Shown here in pieces: positions 670 through 9,427 of a stretch of 44,436 bases of DNA. The DNA comes from an uncultured Pirellulaceae bacterium. GTDB lineage: Bacteria; Planctomycetota; Planctomycetia; Pirellulales; Pirellulaceae. The position numbers and the translations under genes were made by a program. The stretch spans positions 1-44,436 of the forward strand of contig CALJOA010000025.1 in assembly GCA_937981585.1 (NCBI GenBank), in the 5' to 3' direction. The notes under the pieces are model-generated. The model was given only the letters and a program-made list of their open reading frames with translations, had not been told where the DNA came from and ran no database searches. Each line of letters opens with the position of its first letter. The stretch's first letter is position 1.

Positions 670-1581
670 CTAAGCCGTGACTTTGGCGCCGATCCCGTAG
701 TTGGCCAACGTTTTGCGAAGTGCCTCCAGCTCCGCATCATCGAGTTGATACATCGGTAGTCGAAGATCACCTGAATCGCGCCCTATCTCGGCCATAGCGG
801 CTTTGAGTGGAACGGGATTGCTGGCGATGCCAAGCATGTCACGGCACAAGGGAAACAATTTGCGGTGCCAAGTTTGAGCGCCCGCGATGTCGCCACTGCG
901 GAATGCGTCAACCATTGCAATCATGTCCTGGGGCACAATGTTGCCAACGACAGACACAACGCCTTCCCCCCCTATCGCGAGCAAAGGCAACGTTAGGCTG
1001 TCATCGCCACTGAGGACAGTGAGATCGGTCAAGTCGAGAACTTGCGAAGCCTGATCAAGCGAACCAGTTGCTTCTTTAACCATCGTCACGTTGTCGAACT
1101 CGCCAATGCGGGCAATCGTTTCGGGTTCGATATTTTTACCAGTACGTCCCGGGATGTTGTAAACGCAAATCGGAATATCGACTGCTTCGGAAACCGCTTG
1201 GTAATGTCGGAAGAATCCTTCTTGGGTCGGCTTGTTGTAATAAGGCGCTACTTGCAGGGTTGCGTCGGCGCCTTCTCTGGCCGCCCATTGCGTCAGACTA
1301 ATTGCTTCGTCGGTGCTGTTGGACCCAGTTCCCGCCATGACCTTAACTCGGCCCGCTGCAATCTGAATGGTCTCGGAAATGACCCGCTCATGCTCGGGAT
1401 GTGAAAGCGTCGGAGATTCACCAGTCGTTCCACAGGGTACCAGACAATTCGTCCCATTCTCGATCTGAAACTCGATCTGTTCTTTGAACCGGTCCATGTC
1501 CAGTTTGCCATTCTTAAATGGCGTAACTAGCGCGACAGACAGACCGGCGAAATCAGAACCCTTACGAGATACTTCGGACAT
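670..1581 (-). CDS. dapA: 4-hydroxy-tetrahydrodipicolinate synthase
   Basis: DapA condenses pyruvate with aspartate semialdehyde at the start of the lysine and diaminopimelate branch. At 303 residues it is close to the usual 290-300. Family signatures are visible: ALVTPF near residue 18, [11 protein letters not shown] around residue 50 for substrate binding, YNIPGRTG around residue 142 carrying the catalytic Tyr, and MVKEATGS around 168 with the Schiff-base Lys. The start at 1581 ([13 protein letters not shown]) is followed directly by the barrel. It is on the same strand as pdxJ but separated from it by about 400 bases containing a short inverted-repeat element, so it probably has its own promoter. 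Some N-acetylneuraminate lyase-family members look similar, but the motifs favour DapA. Confidence 0.93.
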
Positions 1582-1784
1582 TTGGAACTCCGTGACAAAG
1601 AAATCGTTGCGCTTGAAATTGAACCATCGAAACTTGCGCAGCTCAAATCATACGTGGTACTGAGCCTATTTTCTAGGCGCGAAAAAGTGGAATTGAAAGT
1701 AAAGACTAAAAGGTGTTGAGAAGGTTGATTCCAAGCTCAATGGTTCGTGCATGGAGGGAGTTGAAAAACTGTAGGGCTTGCGCC

Positions 1785-1906
1785 CAATGGCCCTTGCTTT
1801 GTAGCGGTGGAGCGCAAGCTCTCCGGTTTTATTCAAGCGGAACTCTGAGAAACCGGAGGGCTCGCGCCCAAACGCTACAATTTTGCAGGCGAAGTAAGGG
1901 CCATTG
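1785..1906. mobile_element. Short terminal-inverted-repeat element B, copy 1 (MITE-like)
   Basis: A 122-base segment is bounded by inverted termini CAATGGCCCTTGCTT and AAGTAAGGGCCATTG (one mismatch). Inside, GTAGCGGTGGAGCGCAAGCT and CTCGCGCCCAAACGCTAC form an imperfect long stem around an AAACCGGAG region. A near-identical copy lies at 26849-26970. There is no coding capacity, so if it ever moved it did so with a transposase supplied elsewhere. It sits in the 397-base gap between dapA (ends at 1581) and pdxJ (begins at 1979), which otherwise shows nothing recognisable. Confidence 0.75.
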
Positions 1907-1978
1907 AGCGTGCGCCCGACGTCGCCCAATTAAGATTTGATCCGCTTGATCAAAACCGATGCCTACCGGCGCTGGCCG

Positions 1979-2704
1979 CTATTGGCTTCCAACCAAGCTA
2001 CACAGTTGTTTCATTTCTCTTACTGCCTGTTGAAATCCGACGAAGATCGAACGGGCAACAATGCTGTGGCCAATGTTAAGCTCTTCCATTCCGGCAATTT
2101 TGACGACTGGCAGAACGTTGGTGTAGGTCAACCCGTGCCCGGCATGGACAGCCAAACCCTTGGATTTGGCCAGTCGGGTTCCTTCAGTTAGCAGCACCAA
2201 CTGCTTCTCCTGCTCGGCTCCCGAAGTGTTGGCGTAAGTTCCGGTGTGAAGCTCGACTGCACCGACACCAAGTTCCTTGGAAAGCGAAATTTGCTCTGGA
2301 TGAGCGTCGATGAAAAGCGAGACAAAGATTCCAGCGTCGGCAAGCCGTTTGATTGAATCTTCGACTTTGGAGCGATGCTTCACTACATCGAGACCGCCTT
2401 CGGTGGTGACCTCTTCCCGGTTCTCGGGAACAAGACAGACTTGGTGCGGCTTCAACTCGCACGCGATCTTCAGCATTTCTTCTTCACAAGCACACTCTAG
2501 ATTCAATCGAACGTTCACCGTTTCTTTTAAGACATGAATGTCGCGATCCTGAATGTGGCGTCGGTCTTGGCGAAGATGAACCGTGATCTGATCGGCGCCA
2601 CCAAGCTCAGCCATCGCCGCAGCCCACACCGGATCCGGCTCGGTCGTCCGACGGGCTTGTCGGACTGTTGCGACGTGGTCAATGTTGACTCCAAGTGTTG
2701 GCAT
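1979..2704 (-). CDS. pdxJ: Pyridoxine 5'-phosphate synthase
   Basis: PdxJ joins 1-deoxyxylulose 5-phosphate and 3-amino-2-oxopropyl phosphate to make pyridoxine 5'-phosphate in the DXP-dependent vitamin B6 route. The 241-residue product has the classic N-terminus [19 protein letters not shown], then [24 protein letters not shown] and [10 protein letters not shown], and ends with [14 protein letters not shown], the phosphate-binding end of the barrel. The open frame extends upstream to 2794, but the family start is clearly MPTLGVN at 2704, which also removes an overlap with the upstream gene. It follows the beta-RFA-P synthase gene by 22 bases, so it is probably the last gene of that transcription unit, though B6 synthesis has no direct tie to methanopterin. 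Confidence 0.95.
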
Positions 2705-2726
2705 CGTTTTTTTCCAATTGAATTGC

Positions 2727-3728
2727 TTAAACCGAATCTGTCTCGATGAACTTCGCACCATGATTGTCAGCCTTGGTGATTTCAATAGCAACACCGTCGC
2801 AATGTTGATCTAGATGCTCAGACAACCTGGCAGCCGTTTCTTCGTTTTCAGTAACGGCAAAAACACAAGGCCCCCATGAGCTTTGCCCGACGGCTTTGAC
2901 TCCAAAACTACGACAACGAGCAACTAAACCAGCGACCGCTTTGTTTTGATAGGGGCCGCCTTGAATCGAATCGAACATCATTCCACTTCGCCGCCCAAAC
3001 TCAAAAACAGATTCTCCAAACTGATTGTAGTCGCGTTGTGCCAAGCCGGGAATGATCTGGTTCTTGACCAGTTCGACCATTTCTCCACGCTGCTGCTGCG
3101 TCGTCGGAGGCAGATTCCTGAACGCTTCGATTTCCTGTTGGCCCGAAACGCTGGCCAAGCAATCGGCCTTTTGACGGACCAAAACAATGGTCCAAGGTTC
3201 AGGGAATTCGGCTTGGAAATCTAGCGGAGCCAAGATTTCATTCTCCAGCTTGCCTCGGTCCACCAGAAATCCACCGCGACAGAATCCGTGAGTTCCAATT
3301 GCGGAGCGTTTCCCACGGTTGAGAGTTGAAGCGAAATCCTCAGGCGATTGAGAGGGGAGTTGAAGAAGTTTGCCAGCCACTGCCGCAGCTGAGAGTGCCA
3401 GTTGGGTTCCGCTTCCAAATCCGCAGTGGCGTGGGGCAACCGTTTTAACCTCCAAGCTGACGGGGAGGTCGTCGACCGATTCGATTGAAAGTTCTTTCTT
3501 TAGCTGGAGAGCCAGATTATCGAACCAAACCGAAATTGCATCACGGCAGGCGTCGGCTTCAGGACCGCTAACGGACAATTGCTTACTTTTTCGAGCGGTG
3601 ATAATCGTCCGTGGTTGATTGATCATCAATCCGATCCCGCCAAACTTTCGTTCAACAAGATCGCCGACTGAAAAAAGCCCAAAATGCAAACGCGCTGGAG
3701 TCGAGATGGTTACGTGGTCAGTTGCCAT
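2727..3728 (-). CDS. Beta-ribofuranosylaminobenzene 5'-phosphate synthase (GHMP-type)
   Basis: This family condenses p-aminobenzoate with phosphoribosyl pyrophosphate, releasing CO2 and pyrophosphate, the first committed step to the H4MPT cofactor. The 333-residue protein begins [16 protein letters not shown], the family's N-terminal signature, continues with [11 protein letters not shown] and the GHMP glycine-rich segment [18 protein letters not shown], and has [19 protein letters not shown] and [13 protein letters not shown] near the end. The frame is open to 3794, but MATDHVTIS at 3728 fits the family length and leaves an 11-base overlap with the end of the DUF447 gene, which implies translational coupling. 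In bacteria the family is restricted mainly to H4MPT-using methylotrophs and planctomycetes. Confidence 0.9.
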
Positions 3729-4350
3729 CGTTGGTTTCCTGATTCGAACCGGTCGATGACTGGTTGGTTTGGCTTCCGCGATTGACAAACTCATTCAGCA
3801 TTGCGATGGCTGCGTGCTCTTCTGGTCCGCCGGTTTTCTCAACGATCGTGTTGAGCCGGAAGAACTGGTCTGTAATTTCTGAAGCCGGGAGGAAATCCAA
3901 ACGAGTTGCCAGAATTGCGGCTTCGAGGACGGCATGCTTGGCTCGATTGAAGCCAACAAAGTCCCGGTGGCGGTGAGATTTCACGGATTTGCAATTCAGG
4001 TTCATCCGTGGTCCGGTTTCATCGATGAACTCGACAACAAACTCGTAGCTACGGCAAGCACCAACGATGATGTTGCCCACGATCTCTTGGGCAGCTCTAG
4101 TTTCGGGAAACGGATCGAGCGATCCTATTGCCGCGCGAGCAAACATCGCCGCGTCGTCAGTGATGTGAAGGACCCCGGACTTGGTACGTTTCAAATTGGC
4201 GAACGTTCGAGATGTGTCGAATGGTCGGAGTTCAAACGACTCGATCGTTTGGAGGGACGTGCCAGACGCGACGTCGATCGTTGGTCCCATCGGTGAAGCG
4301 TTTGGGGAACCATCCTGGTTGATTGTCGTCACGATTGTTTCGAGAATCAT
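3718..4350 (-). CDS. DUF447 family protein, probably H4MPT-associated
   Basis: A 210-residue protein starting MILETIVTTINQDGSPNASPMG, the typical start of DUF447 proteins, which are predicted to have a flavin-reductase-like split-barrel fold. Other conserved-looking segments are SFELRPFDTSRTFANL, GVLHITDDAAMFARAAIG and the C-terminal FLPASEITDQF. DUF447 proteins occur in archaea and in H4MPT-containing bacteria and are poorly characterised; a role in methanopterin synthesis is an inference from distribution and from this context. The start overlaps the pabA stop by four bases and its own end overlaps the beta-RFA-P synthase start, so it is embedded in a coupled operon. The tail after about residue 190 is Ser/Asn/Gln rich and probably disordered. 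Confidence 0.85.
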   Translation of the reverse strand: MILETIVTTINQDGSPNASPMGPTIDVASGTSLQTIESFELRPFDTSRTFANLKRTKSGVLHITDDAAMFARAAIGSLDPFPETRAAQEIVGNIIVGACRSYEFVVEFIDETGPRMNLNCKSVKSHRHRDFVGFNRAKHAVLEAAILATRLDFLPASEITDQFFRLNTIVEKTGGPEEHAAIAMLNEFVNRGSQTNQSSTGSNQETNDGN

Positions 4351-5045
4351 GGGGTTTCCTCTGGCAGCAATCGTTGTGACAACCGCTCCGATAGTTGCCG
4401 AGTCTGCGGCACGTCATGAGCGTTGCCCCAACTCCCTTTGGGTTGGGCATTCAAAAAGTCGGGATTGGGGATTTCAATCTTTGCCAGTTTCAAAAAGTTA
4501 ATCAGCAGTTGATAGCCGCACTGAGTCAGAATCGATTCGGGATGAAACTGCAGCCCAACCAGCGGCCATTGCTTATGCTCTACCGCCATGATGATCTGAT
4601 CGTCGGTGGTTGCCGTTACAGAAAACTCATTTGGTAGATCTGATTTCTGAGCGACCAACGAGTGATATCGACCTGCAAAGAATGGCGATTTGATTTCGCG
4701 AAACATCTCCGAGCCAGTGTGGTGGACTTCGCTTTGTCGGCCGTGGACCGGCTGGTAGGCTTGGACGATCGAACCACCGAGCGCCTCAATCATGGCTTGG
4801 TGGCCAAGGCAGATTCCCAGGATCGGAATCGAACGGCCGAACTGGCGAACAACGTCGATCGAACATCCGGCTTGGTCGGGCGCGCACGGACCTGGCGAGA
4901 TGACGATGGCATCGGGAGCCAGTTTCGCAATCGCTTCAATCGTGATCGCGTCATTTCGCTTGACTACGGTTTCACAGCCCAACTGCCGGAAGTATCTGGC
5001 AAGGTTATGAACGAAGCTGTCATAGTTATCAATTACGAGAATCAT
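4347..5045 (-). CDS. pabA: Glutamine amidotransferase subunit of aminodeoxychorismate synthase
   Basis: A class I glutamine amidotransferase of 232 residues that supplies ammonia to the chorismate-binding partner. It starts MILVIDNYDSFVHNLARYF, has the oxyanion segment ISPGPCAPDQAG, the nucleophile Cys in GICLGHQ (about residue 79), and the His-Glu pair in LQFHPESILT. PabA and TrpG cannot be told apart from these motifs alone; the immediately abutting pabB gene, whose stop touches this start codon, decides the call. About 40 residues after the catalytic Glu are an extra, poorly structured tail (family members are usually near 190 residues). Confidence 0.9.
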   Translation of the reverse strand: MILVIDNYDSFVHNLARYFRQLGCETVVKRNDAITIEAIAKLAPDAIVISPGPCAPDQAGCSIDVVRQFGRSIPILGICLGHQAMIEALGGSIVQAYQPVHGRQSEVHHTGSEMFREIKSPFFAGRYHSLVAQKSDLPNEFSVTATTDDQIIMAVEHKQWPLVGLQFHPESILTQCGYQLLINFLKLAKIEIPNPDFLNAQPKGSWGNAHDVPQTRQLSERLSQRLLPEETP

Positions 5046-6587
5046 TTATTTTTCGTCGCCGTCTTTCATCGTCACCGCTCGCAGCATCCCGGAGGCTTTG
5101 GTCCACGTCTCCTCGTACTCGCGAGCCGGGTTGGACTGGGTTACGATCCCGCCGCCAACCGGAATCTGCCACCAGCCACCAGCGGCAGTGATCGTCCGGA
5201 TCAAAATGTTGAGGTCGGCATTGCCGTCGAAACCAAGATAACCCAACGCACCGCAATACGCACCACGGGCAGTCGGTTCGAGTTCGGCGATGATCTCCAT
5301 TGCGCGGACTTTTGGCGCCCCAGTGATCGAGCCACCAGGGAAAACCGATTTCAAGAGGTCGATCAAGTCGTGTTCTGGTTTAAGCCGACCTTGGACGGCG
5401 GAAACAAGATGAAAGACGCTTTGATACTCTTCAAGTTCGCAGTGTTGTGTGACTATGATTGAATCGTCTAGGCAGACTTTGGAAAGATCGTTTCGCATCA
5501 AGTCCACGATCATTGTGTTCTCGGCTCGATCCTTCTCACTGGCCAGCAGTTCTTCTTTGGCGGCGATATCGACCATCGGGCGACCAGTCCGTCTCCGAGT
5601 TCCTTTGATCGGTCGAGTTTCAACCAAGCCATCTCGAACCGAGAACAGACGCTCCGGAGAAGCGCTGACAATCTGAGCTGCGGTTTCGCCGAATCCTGAT
5701 TCGTCCACCAATCCACTAAGATCAAAATATCCGCCAAAGGGCGCGGGGTTGCATTTGGTCAGCCGATGATGAAGCTCCAGTGAGCTGCAGTTGGCCGGGA
5801 ACAACAATCGCTGAGCAAGGTTGATTTGAAATACGTCGCCTGCGTTGATGTAGTCGATAGATTTTTGAACCGAGTCGACATAGTCTTTGGGGGAGAAATT
5901 GCTTTTTAAATCTTTGGGACCGTCAACCTCGTACGTCGGAGCGAGATCCGATTCGGCGATGGGCTCGACCGGATCGTGCTTAGTTGGCAAGGCACCGATT
6001 TCCAGCAAGCATTGAATGAACCGGGCTCGCGTTTGGGCTTGGGTTCTTCTGGCTTCTGGTTCCTCTGCCGGAAAGCCCTGTGAGATGATCCAGGACTTGT
6101 CGAGTTGATGGTCCCAAGCCACAACGACGTCGTAGGCTCCGACCGCAATCGCGGGGAGCTGAAACTCGTCGTGCTCTACGGCGTTGACTCGTTCGATCGA
6201 GCGGTTGAGGTCATAGCTGAACAGGCCCGCCAAACCGCCTTGCATCGGTGGTAAGTCCGCAACTGTTTGAGTCTGAAATTTTTGTAGCAGCGATTTCAAT
6301 CGCGTGAATATCTTTTCCGATCCGACCGGTTCAACGATGGTTTCAATCGGATCGGCCATCAAAAAAGAGTATCTGCCCAGCGGCTGGGATTCTGGCGTGT
6401 CCCCGGTTTGGGAAATTTTCATGGCGCTTTGGAGCAATAGGCAACCCGGCAGATGAGCCAGGCGGCTGGCCGCAGATTCAACTGATAGCGCAGGGGGCAA
6501 CTCAATGACGGTTGGTGCGAATTGAGTAACACCGATCGAGGGGGCGTTTGATGGGTCGGTTTTGGTCACGTTTTCTCTATAGGGCAC
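5046..6587 (-). CDS. pabB: Aminodeoxychorismate synthase component I
   Basis: PabB converts chorismate with ammonia to 4-amino-4-deoxychorismate, the precursor of p-aminobenzoate. The 513-residue protein has the chorismate-binding C-terminal domain: SPERLFSVRDG, ETRPIKGTRRRTG, MIVDLMRNDLSKVC, FPGGSITGAPKVRAMEII and IPVGGGIVTQSNPAREYEETW. The Lys in PIKGT is the residue characteristic of PabB; anthranilate synthase TrpE has Ala (PIAGT). That supports a p-aminobenzoate rather than a tryptophan role. The start used is GTG at 6587; another GTG lies six codons downstream and a slightly shorter N-terminus is possible. No separate aminodeoxychorismate lyase (pabC) is seen here. The product could feed both folate and H4MPT. 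Confidence 0.92.
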   Translation of the reverse strand: MPYRENVTKTDPSNAPSIGVTQFAPTVIELPPALSVESAASRLAHLPGCLLLQSAMKISQTGDTPESQPLGRYSFLMADPIETIVEPVGSEKIFTRLKSLLQKFQTQTVADLPPMQGGLAGLFSYDLNRSIERVNAVEHDEFQLPAIAVGAYDVVVAWDHQLDKSWIISQGFPAEEPEARRTQAQTRARFIQCLLEIGALPTKHDPVEPIAESDLAPTYEVDGPKDLKSNFSPKDYVDSVQKSIDYINAGDVFQINLAQRLLFPANCSSLELHHRLTKCNPAPFGGYFDLSGLVDESGFGETAAQIVSASPERLFSVRDGLVETRPIKGTRRRTGRPMVDIAAKEELLASEKDRAENTMIVDLMRNDLSKVCLDDSIIVTQHCELEEYQSVFHLVSAVQGRLKPEHDLIDLLKSVFPGGSITGAPKVRAMEIIAELEPTARGAYCGALGYLGFDGNADLNILIRTITAAGGWWQIPVGGGIVTQSNPAREYEETWTKASGMLRAVTMKDGDEK

Positions 6588-6748
6588 GAGTTTGAAAGGC
6601 GGTTTGTCGTTTAGTCACTCCCGCGTAGACGGCAGTCCATTGTGGCGTTAGGAGACTGGGTTCCCGACTGAGCGGCAATGGCAGACTGGGTGATTCCGAT
6701 TGGAGCAACCGAACAGTTCCGATGCCGCAAACGCCCAATCGTTGCATG

Positions 6749-8146
6749 TCACGGCTCACTCTTCTTTCTTCCCCGCTTTAACCGATGGCGATCCGTTTCA
6801 GGATTTGTCAAAAATCCCCAGTCGAGCGCTTCGTCTTGAGTGTACTGCTTTCCCAGCTGCAACGCAGTAAGTGCTTTACACATTTCGTAACCGAGATAAA
6901 ACGCATGAGACGCATCCACGTTTTTGGGTGCCGTCTCCATCAGCTGGTCAAAGGCATTGAAGGGGTCGGGATCGTGAAAGTGATGGCCGCTTCCCAACAA
7001 ATGGACCTCGCCGTCTTCGGCCACAATTCTGTAATTGTTGTCTTTGATCTGTGCAGCCAATTGTTCAATTTGCTCAGTACCAAACTCCAGCAGTTTGGGA
7101 TCACGAAGGATGACCAACTCGTTACTCAGATGTTTCGGAGGTACTTTCTGCGTTACGGCATAGTAAACCAGCCGTCTGGCAATGTCGCATTCCTTGACAC
7201 TGGTTCTGGCCCAGTTAATCACTTGAGTCGTCAACACACTACGGATGCCCAGTTCCTGGCAGATCGCCAGCAGGATCAGATTGACACCAGCCGAATCGAC
7301 GTCAGTTAGTTCACTGATGTTGCCGATCCCCATCATCATTTCGGCTTCGGGCCAACGCTTTCTCGATTCGATGTAACGCGAAAGGCTATTAGCGAAACCC
7401 ATTCCAATCGGTTCGAGAATTGGATCGATTCGAAGAGAGACGTTATTGGAAGCCAGCAATTCGATCGTTGATTCCATCGAATTGATGTCTCGAATGTCGT
7501 CAGGAATCACGACGACTTCGCATCCCCAATCGAGAGCCGAGTCCCGATTGGAGCTATTGACTGACAATACCAGTTCGGCGCCGGCGTTGACTGCTGGTGC
7601 GATTTCGTCAGGATTGAGACTATCGATCGAAACACGCAGTCCAATGTCTTTGAGGGCTTTGACGCAGTCGCCGACGCCCGACCAGTTTGAATTGGGTTCG
7701 CAACCGACATCGATTAGCGTGGCTCCATCGGCGGAGAGCTTTTTTCCTGCAGCGATAATCTCGGCCAACGAGAAACGCGGCGCGTGATTGATCTCCGCGA
7801 TAATGTCGATGTCCCACGCACCGTAGTCCGAACGATCAGGTGTCTGGCCGAAATACTCCGGCAGCCGGCGAAGATCTTTTGGGCCGCGTTCGACTGGAAC
7901 CGAAGTCGTTTCCGTGATCGGTGTTAGATCGCCCAGACAATAACCGGGCAAGACGATCCGAGTCGTTCCGGCGGGAATTTCCAAACGTGGTGCTACCCAT
8001 TTAGGTGTCAACAGCGCTGCCACGGTGATCGGAAGGACTTGAATGGAAAACTCAAATTCAGCTGCCTGTGCGACGCTTGGCAAGATCTGTCGCAGTGCTG
8101 ATTCGGCAAGGCGTCCGGTAACAAAATGAAATTTTTCTTTCGACAT
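6749..8146 (-). CDS. Dihydropteroate-synthase-like DUF6513 protein
   Basis: A 465-residue protein with an N-terminal region starting FHFVTGRLAES (DUF6513-type) followed by a pterin-binding-like TIM barrel. Barrel signatures are IIAEINHAPRFS, GATLIDVGCEPNSNW, LRVSIDSLNPDE, ELVLSVNSSN and MGIGNISELTDVDSAG, reminiscent of dihydropteroate synthase and its archaeal and methylotroph relatives. The canonical bacterial DHPS is about 280 residues, so this is a distinct longer family. Dihydropteroate-synthase-related proteins occur in bacterial H4MPT clusters, and its place at the head of the run with pabAB and beta-RFA-P synthase suggests a pterin-joining or related step. That function is inference. 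A 161-base gap separates it from pabB. Confidence 0.85.
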   Translation of the reverse strand: MSKEKFHFVTGRLAESALRQILPSVAQAAEFEFSIQVLPITVAALLTPKWVAPRLEIPAGTTRIVLPGYCLGDLTPITETTSVPVERGPKDLRRLPEYFGQTPDRSDYGAWDIDIIAEINHAPRFSLAEIIAAGKKLSADGATLIDVGCEPNSNWSGVGDCVKALKDIGLRVSIDSLNPDEIAPAVNAGAELVLSVNSSNRDSALDWGCEVVVIPDDIRDINSMESTIELLASNNVSLRIDPILEPIGMGFANSLSRYIESRKRWPEAEMMMGIGNISELTDVDSAGVNLILLAICQELGIRSVLTTQVINWARTSVKECDIARRLVYYAVTQKVPPKHLSNELVILRDPKLLEFGTEQIEQLAAQIKDNNYRIVAEDGEVHLLGSGHHFHDPDPFNAFDQLMETAPKNVDASHAFYLGYEMCKALTALQLGKQYTQDEALDWGFLTNPETDRHRLKRGRKKSEP

Positions 8147-8296
8147 CTGTTACCAATGACAACATAAAAGCTTGTTCGAAGATAGCTGTTGTTCTATTTT
8201 TAATAGAAGTGTTCGAGATTTTATAGGTCCAGCCTTTGATGATGGTCGAATCTTGCCATACGGTACCTTCCCGAAATCCGTTCATGAAAGCCTGTC

Positions 8297-9427
8297 ATGA
8301 AAGCTCTTAGATACGCGAAACGATTGGTCGGATTTGATTCCACCAGTTGCGTTTCCAACAGTTTGATCAGCAAGTATTTGGAATTGAAGCTGACCAAGCA
8401 CGGTTTCGTTGTTGAGAAGATTGAGTACTGGGACCACAAGAAAGTCAGAAAGACCAATCTCGTTGCCAAGAAAGGCGGCGGTCAGGGCGGGTTGGCTTAT
8501 TGTAGCCACTCCGATGTCGTACCTGCCAAGAAGTGGTTCACCAAAAAGTTTGGCGCGTTTGAACCCGCCATCGCGCGGGAGCGGCTTTATGGACGTGGAA
8601 GCTGCGACATGAAGGGCTCGATTGCGTGCATGTTAACCGCTGCGCAGCAATTCGCCTGGGATGAATTGAAGCAGCCCATCTACTTCATCGTCACGGCAGA
8701 CGAAGAGGTCGGGTTCCATGGTGCCAAGTGCGTTGTCGAAGAAAGCAAGCTCTACCGGGAAATGGTTGCCACGGGTACCAAGGCGATCATTGGCGAGCCG
8801 ACTTCGTTGGAAGTCGTTCACGCTCACAAAGGCTCGATCGACATCGTGGCCACCGCGCGCGGCAAAGCCGGTCATTCAGGTGGCCGAAAAGGTAGCAACG
8901 CAAATTTGAAGATGATTCCGTTTCTGGCCGATATCAAAGCGATCTACGACGAAACCGAAACAGAAAAGAAGTGGCACAACGACAGCTTCGATCCTCCGAC
9001 GCTAAGCTGGAATATTTCTGTCAAAGACGACGCGCCGGCGCTCAACGTTACCGCTGGCAAGAGTGTTTGCCAGATGTACGTTCGTCCGATGCCGGGAATC
9101 GATGCCGAGCCGTTGCTCAATCGAGTTCGTGAGTCGGCTCAAAAGAATGATCTTGAGCTGGAAATCAATCCCTACGGCAACGGATTTTTTGTCGATCCGG
9201 GCAGTGATTTTGTTCAGGAGTCGTTGAGACTGGCTCATCGGCCAAAATCAAAAACGGTCTCCTACGGAACCGACGGTACGATGTTTACTGAAATTGAGAA
9301 CAAGATCGTATTTGGGCCAGGAAGCATCGACCAGGCCCACACGGTCAACGAGTGGATCGCGCTGGAGCAGCTTGAAAAAGGAACCGAAATGTATGTCAAA
9401 ATGATCCGTCACTGGTGTTGCCAGTAA
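8297..9427 (+). CDS. M20-family zinc amidohydrolase (ArgE/DapE-like)
   Basis: A 376-residue metallopeptidase-family deacylase. Zinc-ligand motifs are in order: AYCSHSDVVP (His), YGRGSCDMKGSIA (Asp), TADEEVGFHGAK (the Glu-Glu pair with the catalytic base) and IIGEPTSLEVVHAHKG, with a final His in PGSIDQAHTVNEW. The layout, with the dimerisation domain around residues 175-290, fits acetylornithine deacetylase or succinyl-diaminopimelate desuccinylase. The substrate cannot be fixed from the sequence; a GNAT gene follows about 100 bases downstream, which leans towards an N-acyl amino acid substrate. It is divergent from the DUF6513 gene, with 150 bases between the starts. Confidence 0.88.
   Translation: MKALRYAKRLVGFDSTSCVSNSLISKYLELKLTKHGFVVEKIEYWDHKKVRKTNLVAKKGGGQGGLAYCSHSDVVPAKKWFTKKFGAFEPAIARERLYGRGSCDMKGSIACMLTAAQQFAWDELKQPIYFIVTADEEVGFHGAKCVVEESKLYREMVATGTKAIIGEPTSLEVVHAHKGSIDIVATARGKAGHSGGRKGSNANLKMIPFLADIKAIYDETETEKKWHNDSFDPPTLSWNISVKDDAPALNVTAGKSVCQMYVRPMPGIDAEPLLNRVRESAQKNDLELEINPYGNGFFVDPGSDFVQESLRLAHRPKSKTVSYGTDGTMFTEIENKIVFGPGSIDQAHTVNEWIALEQLEKGTEMYVKMIRHWCCQ

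Follow-up and report, generated by a model that had tools for sequence, protein, structure and literature searches.

Methanogens and many methylotrophs use methanopterin-type coenzymes as carriers of one-carbon units, and parts of methanopterin synthesis are not known to have assigned enzymes. In methylotrophic proteobacteria, the genes for tetrahydromethanopterin (H4MPT) and methylofuran lie in islands with the series orf19-orf20-afpA-orf21-orf22, an order reported in the accessible part of PMC3615186, and mch-orf5-orf7-fae-orf17, together with mtdB and mptG; Orf22 corresponds to MfnB, Orf21 to MfnE and Orf9 to MfnF (accessible part of PMC8141765). H4MPT-linked C1 genes are established knowledge in planctomycetes too (Chistoserdova 2004, 2016; accessible part of PMC5020050), as the original prediction on the DNA considered here had noted. 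This DNA, henceforth the window, is a stretch of 44,436 nucleotides from an uncultured Pirellulaceae bacterium (GenBank assembly GCA_937981585.1, contig CALJOA010000025.1), in which six minus-strand genes between positions 1979 and 8146 encode a DUF6513 protein, PabB, PabA, a DUF447 protein, beta-ribofuranosylaminobenzene 5'-phosphate (beta-RFAP) synthase, abbreviated as RFAPS, and PdxJ.

The run is almost certainly a biosynthesis operon for H4MPT, within which PabB and PabA very probably feed RFAPS; the fuller statement, that such an operon also contains in DUF447 a protein acting directly beside RFAPS, appears quite probable. The original prediction that PabAB supply RFAPS in H4MPT synthesis is thus sustained by gene content, gene order and co-occurrence. 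Membership of the pathway is well supported, and the roles of the single enzymes are predictions from sequence.

Gene Content and Order of the Run

The run starts with the gene for a DUF6513/TIGR00284 dihydropteroate synthase (DHPS)-like protein of 465 amino acids (6749..8146, minus strand, as for all genes of the run), in which N-terminal DUF6513 is combined with a DHPS-like half barrel and a C-terminal domain. A gap of 161 bases separates it from pabB (component I of aminodeoxychorismate synthase, 513 amino acids, 5046..6587), which abuts, with 0 bases between, the gene for the glutamine amidotransferase PabA (232 amino acids, 4347..5045, recognized from its open reading frame, ORF, and family matches); pabA in turn overlaps by 4 bases the gene for the DUF447 protein (210 amino acids, 3718..4350). 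The RFAPS gene extends over 2727..3794 from its first ATG, but its likely start is the internal ATG at 3728 (333 amino acids), favoured because the alignments of its relatives begin there; the overlap with the DUF447 gene is then 11 bases, the value originally given, instead of the 77 bases counted from the first ATG. ORFs and families agree with the six genes first described, and the ORF coordinates bear out the abutting pabB-pabA pair and the 4-base overlap. Co-transcription is suggested by gene spacing, and the layout is not due to chance, because the same order recurs in relatives. Promoter-like sites across the scan numbered 1 versus a shuffle mean of 3.9, and terminator-like sites 7 versus 9.6, without excess in either case.

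Gene order was counted over 21 loci, namely those of the 19 H4MPT genomes described below plus loci L004 and L005. DUF447 and RFAPS genes are adjacent in 13 of the 21 and fused in another two, pabA adjoins the DUF447 gene in 11 (nine numbered genomes of five families, together with L004 and L005), and the DUF6513 gene adjoins pabB in 15; in L004 and L005 an additional ORF separates the two. The conserved order that the original prediction proposed to look for across Planctomycetota is therefore present. The complete six-gene order including pdxJ is found in the window, in genome G205, where a short-chain reductase (SDR) gene precedes it, and, with the extra ORF, in L004 and L005. Hence the window unites two blocks that recur separately, DUF6513-pabB and pabA-DUF447-RFAPS. 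The extra ORF (L004:7040-7690; L005:1491-2078), which does not occur in the window, resembles by eye a metalloprotease with an HEAGH motif.

The chorismate enzyme of the window matches Chorismate_bind with 283.8 bits, as PabA matches GATase with 191.5 bits; it scores 345.4 against a TrpE cut-off of 517.7 and also falls under the PabB cut-offs. A separate TrpE, scoring 590 bits and above cut-off, is encoded on contig C6 of the same genome, and where this protein reads PLAGT the window protein reads PIKGT. In a cluster of 17 chorismate-enzyme members from the loci, 15 have PIKGT, PLAGT occurs only in the C6 TrpE, and the remaining member is truncated; the lysine of PIKGT is a marker of PabB. The missed TrpE cut-off, the separate TrpE and the PIKGT motif together indicate that the window enzyme is PabB and not TrpE. 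For RFAPS, the window protein scores 114.9 bits on TIGR00144 (cut-off 113.5) and 37.7 bits on the GHMP C-terminal family. Its nearest solved structure, ForT with phosphoribosyl pyrophosphate (PRPP; 6yqq), is distant, and its phosphate loop, P-x3-GFGSGT in the window translation and the consensus, was judged to be like the PX3GLGSSAA reported for RFAPS (accessible part of PMC6787355).

Distribution of the Genes

The survey comprised one draw of 216 planctomycete genomes and 14 named control genomes, searched with profiles, as a single-sequence scan of contigs gave only two relatives for DUF447; relatives of the source assembly in the contig scan were an uncultured Pirellulaceae bacterium and a Mariniblastus sp. 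DUF447 (19 genomes above cut-off), RFAPS (19 with strong matches) and Mch (19) occupy an identical set of 19 of the 216 planctomycete genomes, not counting a DUF447 match in G127 (21.2 bits, 48 positions) and RFAPS matches of about 21 bits in G140 and G186. DUF6513 is present in those 19 genomes and in one more, G167. The 19 genomes represent 13 genera and 7 families, and the chance of such an overlap would be below 1e-24 if genomes were independent, their effective number being much smaller. Among the controls, DUF447 and RFAPS both match Methanocaldococcus jannaschii, Haloferax, Sulfolobus and Methanosarcina (4/14), with RFAPS above cut-off in two; Mch matches 3/14, the DUF6513 family PF20123 2/14, FolP 13/14, and TIGR00284 seven, three above cut-off. 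Since both match the same four controls, among them Haloferax, for which folate has been argued to be the carrier, the occurrence of DUF447 tracks that of RFAPS and not the type of carrier. The proposal that the two uncharacterized families co-occur with RFAPS is consequently supported for DUF447; for DUF6513 it holds in the 19 planctomycetes, but G167 lacks RFAPS, while Haloferax and Methanosarcina have an RFAPS match without one to PF20123.

In the source assembly (G000; 3.5 Mb, 158 contigs, 80% complete), Mch is encoded beside an MptN-like ligase (221.9 bits, under that model's cut-off), and contig C144 carries Fae, MtdB-like and MyfB-like genes. Of the H4MPT-dependent C1 genes that the original prediction sought elsewhere in the genome, mch and fae were thus located, in addition to the last two; for ftr the search gave no match here, the assembly being 80% complete, but a match in each of the 18 other H4MPT genomes. 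On C144, mtdB is followed by genes for an aminotransferase and for a zinc alcohol dehydrogenase, which were considered as an MfnC candidate and dropped, the aminotransferase having no relatives in the other loci.

DUF447 was also detected on 36 plasmid records, four islands of which were examined. All four hold DUF6513 and DUF447 among H4MPT genes; the two overlap by 4 bases in three islands, and an AfpA-like flavoprotein precedes DUF6513 in three. On the Paraburkholderia plasmid (L144:7611-15998), an IS5 transposase gene and a block of Calvin-cycle genes split DUF6513 from DUF447.

DUF447 and Its Fusion to RFAPS

The window DUF447 protein matches DUF447_N with 64.8 bits and DUF447_C with 49.3 bits, and its solved relatives are 3b5m (E 2e-29), 2iml, 2nr4 and 2ptf. 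The next hits of its profile are FMN-binding or related proteins, including 3in6 and 1eje, at marginal E values of 0.015 to 0.85. Thirteen columns are invariant across 23 planctomycete and proteobacterial DUF447 proteins; the AlphaFold model, shallow with three sequences (mean pLDDT 42), was not used. Two genomes encode DUF447 and RFAPS as a fusion, in single open frames of 525 codons (G064) and 517 codons (G133), DUF447 coming before RFAPS and pabA lying upstream. In the RFAPS tree these two share a clade with the unfused proteins of G117 and G148 (supports 93/93 and 90/83); since the clade mixes fused and unfused forms, either one fusion was later split or two fusions occurred. Co-occurrence, which extends to Haloferax, and fusion both place DUF447 beside the RFAPS step. 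By sequence, DUF447 likely acts on the product of RFAPS.

Which reaction could this be? To our knowledge, the reductase that converts the riboside to the deoxyribitol has no assigned gene. Methanopterin contains 1-(4-aminophenyl)-1-deoxyribitol (a reference within the accessible part of PMC3261824), and hence the riboside must be reduced. It is a tentative suggestion, judged somewhat short of an even chance, that DUF447 would be this ribitol-forming reductase. A recent paper, in its accessible part, ties DUF447 to archaeal cannulae (PMC13140500).

The DUF6513 Protein

The window protein scores 74.8 bits on PF20123 and 29.5 bits on the DHPS-type family PF00809 (cut-off 25.5). DHPS-type proteins account for 34 of the 37 profile hits and, among the matches listed, for 49 of the 50 structures resembling the AlphaFold model, which has a mean pLDDT of 54.5 (three sequences) and is usable only over residues 1 to about 240. 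Two aspartates, D146 and D175, align by HMMER with aspartates of Sul3 and are invariant in 25/25 DUF6513 proteins; aspartates after the first barrel strands belong to the pterin pocket of DHPS. The proteins of the loci differ from FolP itself, scoring at most 35.8 bits on TIGR01496 (cut-off 162.6), and FolP is found above cut-off in all 27 genomes tested, with a separate copy in the source assembly. Sulfolobus, which matches RFAPS, DUF447 and DUF6513, is the sole control of the 14 without a FolP match.

The genome G167 provides a natural contrast, for it has DUF6513 without RFAPS, DUF447, Mch, SDR, Fae or Ftr. Its DUF6513 has changed 18 of 59 columns that are invariant in 25 other DUF6513 proteins, and the changes concentrate in the barrel region (15/32, versus 3/27 outside; Fisher p 0.004), affecting D146, D175 and D241. 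On balance, the sequence evidence favours, with some reserve, DUF6513 as the condensing enzyme.

The gene in G167 (L103:8733-10196) still adjoins pabB; the genome consists of one contig and lacks H4MPT genes. A pterin-4a-carbinolamine dehydratase gene adjoins that of DUF6513 in 8/19 genomes (L108, L109, L110, L113, L114, L115, L117 and L120), and another adjoins fhc/RFAPS on an Azospirillum plasmid (L143:24606-24983).

A Short-Chain Reductase Marking the Pathway

Outside the window, a profile match on contig C144 of the source assembly (7665-8423; loci L183 and L162) identifies a divergent SDR, whose gene is separated by about 6 kb from those for the MtdB-like protein and Fae. The profile was built from eight SDRs linked to DUF6513, themselves among the 18 matches, and at the single threshold of E 1e-55, with at most the 12 best first-look candidates scored per genome, it gave one match each in 18 of the 19 H4MPT genomes and none in the 197 others. 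In eight genomes of six families, this SDR is encoded directly upstream of DUF6513, counting four in which the pterin-4a-carbinolamine dehydratase sits between them. All 18 SDRs have a GWD...GM-G-S motif; the residue before x3-Lys is Phe in 17 and Tyr in G133, a position that alignment with FabG places at the catalytic Tyr. On plasmids, eight records match at E 1e-30, with at most 39% identity and generic SDR names or no annotation. SDRs of PTR1 type have the motifs TGxxxRxG and YxxxK; identity with PTR1 was rejected, as the eight linked SDRs read TGxxxGxG and 17 of the 18 have Phe at the Tyr place.

A 213-residue AfpA query from Azoarcus found no match in 20 genomes, none of them a positive control; a full-length AfpA query matches loci L142 and L144. 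Afp is not recognized in planctomycetes according to the accessible part of PMC5020050. That the SDR would be a dihydromethanopterin reductase is, from its sequence, a prospect just below even.

Proposed Pathway and Alternatives

In the scheme that we consider, PabB and PabA would produce aminodeoxychorismate, the precursor of p-aminobenzoate (pABA), for the completion of which PabC is needed. RFAPS would then join pABA and PRPP into beta-RFAP, with loss of CO2 and pyrophosphate, and DUF447, an apparent relative of FMN-binding split barrels, would act on this product, most likely as a flavin-dependent reductase turning the C-riboside into the 1-deoxyribitol of methanopterin. DUF6513 would be an H4MPT-specific DHPS-like enzyme joining the aryl part to the pterin, and the SDR, instead of AfpA/DmrA, might catalyse the final reduction that yields H4MPT; PdxJ would be a neighbour only. 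In the most specific version, DUF447 would be a flavin reductase that opens the riboside of RFAP and reduces it to deoxyribitol, coupled tightly enough with RFAPS for the two to fuse, and an SDR whose active site is remodelled (GWD, Phe-x3-Lys) would form a further class of dihydromethanopterin reductase, replacing AfpA beside DUF6513; this version is rather unlikely to hold in every part.

Several observations weigh against this interpretation. Shared ancestry makes the phyletic agreement look stronger than it is, the 19 genomes amounting to only seven families; DUF447 and RFAPS genes lie apart in 6 of the 21 loci (G130, G105, G087, G024, G137 and G194), and the two fusions are read from assembled sequence, in assemblies of about 200 contigs each. 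FMN binding by DUF447 is suggested by marginal profile hits. The window RFAPS scores 162.2 bits on NF040726, under the cut-off of 328, which none of the 216 planctomycete genomes reaches. For Haloferax, the accessible part of PMC8305020 makes a case for folate as the carrier and questions whether the RFAPS homologue produces RFAP; the DUF447-RFAPS pair may thus have a different role in that organism. DUF6513 lacks the usual later motifs of FolP, and its model matches a tetrahydrofolate (THF) methyltransferase at the same Z as DHPS. Methanosarcina matches RFAPS, DUF447 and TIGR00284 without matching PF20123, and M. jannaschii matches both FolP and DUF6513; its FolP-like protein being the methanopterin DHPS, DUF6513 need not condense in this organism. 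Finally, G185 has the pathway without an SDR match, and the three ORFs downstream of its DUF6513 gene showed no pterin-reductase-like family.

Among the alternatives, DUF447 might instead be the planctomycete dihydromethanopterin reductase, filling the gap left by AfpA/DmrA while the SDR has another job. The missing AfpA matches and the marginal likeness to FMN-binding barrels would suit this role, which we nevertheless regard as improbable: AfpA and DUF447 occur together in three of the four plasmid islands, so DUF447 is not needed as dihydromethanopterin reductase there; the four archaeal controls match DUF447, as if its step were common to all; and its fusion partner is RFAPS, not a pterin enzyme. 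Equally low is our estimate for a noncatalytic or regulatory partner of RFAPS, such as a scaffold or redox sensor, since fusion and overlap by themselves only indicate close functional coupling, but the 13 invariant columns and the retention of the family wherever strong RFAPS matches occur in the sample speak for more than that. Nor do we find it probable that PabAB make pABA mainly for folate, their siting beside RFAPS being an operon convenience; folate synthesis does need pABA too, given FolP in 27/27 genomes, and DUF6513-pabB persists in G167, yet pabA lies by DUF447 and pabB by DUF6513 in the proportions given above, and pabB of methylotrophs is named as commonly associated with H4MPT biosynthesis (accessible part of PMC3615186).

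Greater weight belongs to the alternatives for the other two proteins. DUF6513 could bind pterin for another job, for instance methyl transfer or as a carrier, as hinted by a weak C-terminal match to PF14251 (PterinBD-DUF4346; 26.9 bits, under the cut-off of 29.6), a weak MtrA match in a relative (19.6 bits, where the cut-off is 568), a GIGN-TE stretch differing from FolP, and the THF methyltransferase tied with DHPS in the fold list. The predominance of DHPS-type hits by profile and by structure, and the two aligned aspartates, invariant in 25/25 but lost in G167, make this unlikely and leave the condensing enzyme as our preferred role. For the SDR, service in methylofuran synthesis or another branch, or reduction of RFAP rather than dihydromethanopterin, is a sizeable possibility, if less than even: the SDR gene of G130 adjoins weak matches to MfnB, MfnE and MfnF (24-33% identity), G185 does without it, and SDR specificity is not readable from sequence. 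Its position upstream of DUF6513 in eight genomes of six families, where proteobacteria place afpA, favours instead the last reduction to H4MPT.

Neighbouring Genes and Implications

The sixth gene, pdxJ, encodes a pyridoxine 5'-phosphate synthase (330.6 bits on PdxJ; 1979..2794 from the first GTG, with a likely start at the internal ATG 2707). Downstream lies dapA (670..1581, minus strand), recognized from families and from gene order in the same close relatives, which keep it. The two genes follow RFAPS (window 670-2794) also in L004, L005 and G205, which is probably a habit of the lineage, and both are probably lineage-specific neighbours outside the pathway. Automatic annotation based on NF040726 will miss RFAPS in all 19 planctomycete genomes carrying one.

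With the DUF447-RFAPS protein and an SDR restricted, in the sample, to genomes with the pathway, open steps become matters for ordinary enzyme assays, and annotators gain a better label for DUF447. The link with pabAB bears on the substrate of bacterial RFAPS, which could be pABA or follow a phenol route as in M. jannaschii, where such a route has been reported, implying 4-hydroxybenzoate as substrate for RFAPS (accessible part of PMC3261824).

Comparison with Known Systems

Known RFAPS and ForT provide the nearest references for the synthase: the window protein lies above the TIGR00144 cut-off and has ForT-PRPP as nearest solved structure, but differs in falling under the equivalog cut-off of NF040726. 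DUF447 belongs by sequence to the same family as 3b5m, 2iml, 2nr4 and 2ptf, which were deposited as uncharacterized or hypothetical proteins. DUF6513 shares with FolP the barrel half and two aligned aspartates; it differs by its extra N-terminal DUF6513 and C-terminal domains and by altered later motifs, and FolP is encoded separately.

In the open-licence literature, nothing was found joining planctomycetes with methanopterin and ribofuranosylaminobenzene, pairing DUF447 with methanopterin, or linking planctomycete H4MPT to a short-chain dehydrogenase, and papers there on dihydromethanopterin reductase and planctomycetes mention no SDR in titles or abstract beginnings. The accessible part of PMC5020050 contains neither the fusion nor the SDR candidate, nor the order of pab and DUF447 genes.

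The closest resemblance is with the proteobacterial islands, which share the families of RFAPS, DUF6513, DUF447, Mch, Fae, MtdB, RimK-type ligase and CitG-like proteins. By elimination from the assigned Orfs and from island order, DUF447 and DUF6513 correspond to orf19/orf20. The link of DUF6513 and DUF447 with H4MPT is therefore not new, being implied in these islands under orf names; the coupling of pabAB, DUF447 and a DHPS-like protein, offered originally as a source of hypotheses for the two families, retains its support but loses part of its novelty, as both the islands and the pabB association precede it. The novelty lies in the fusion of DUF447 to RFAPS, in the decay of DUF6513 in G167 and in the SDR as a marker of the pathway, which together yield testable roles. 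The planctomycetes differ from the proteobacterial islands in having pabB-pabA between DUF6513 and DUF447-RFAPS, and in showing, without an AfpA match, an SDR (eight genomes) and often a pterin dehydratase (eight genomes) by DUF6513. In sum, the operon of the window represents the planctomycete form of an already known island type.

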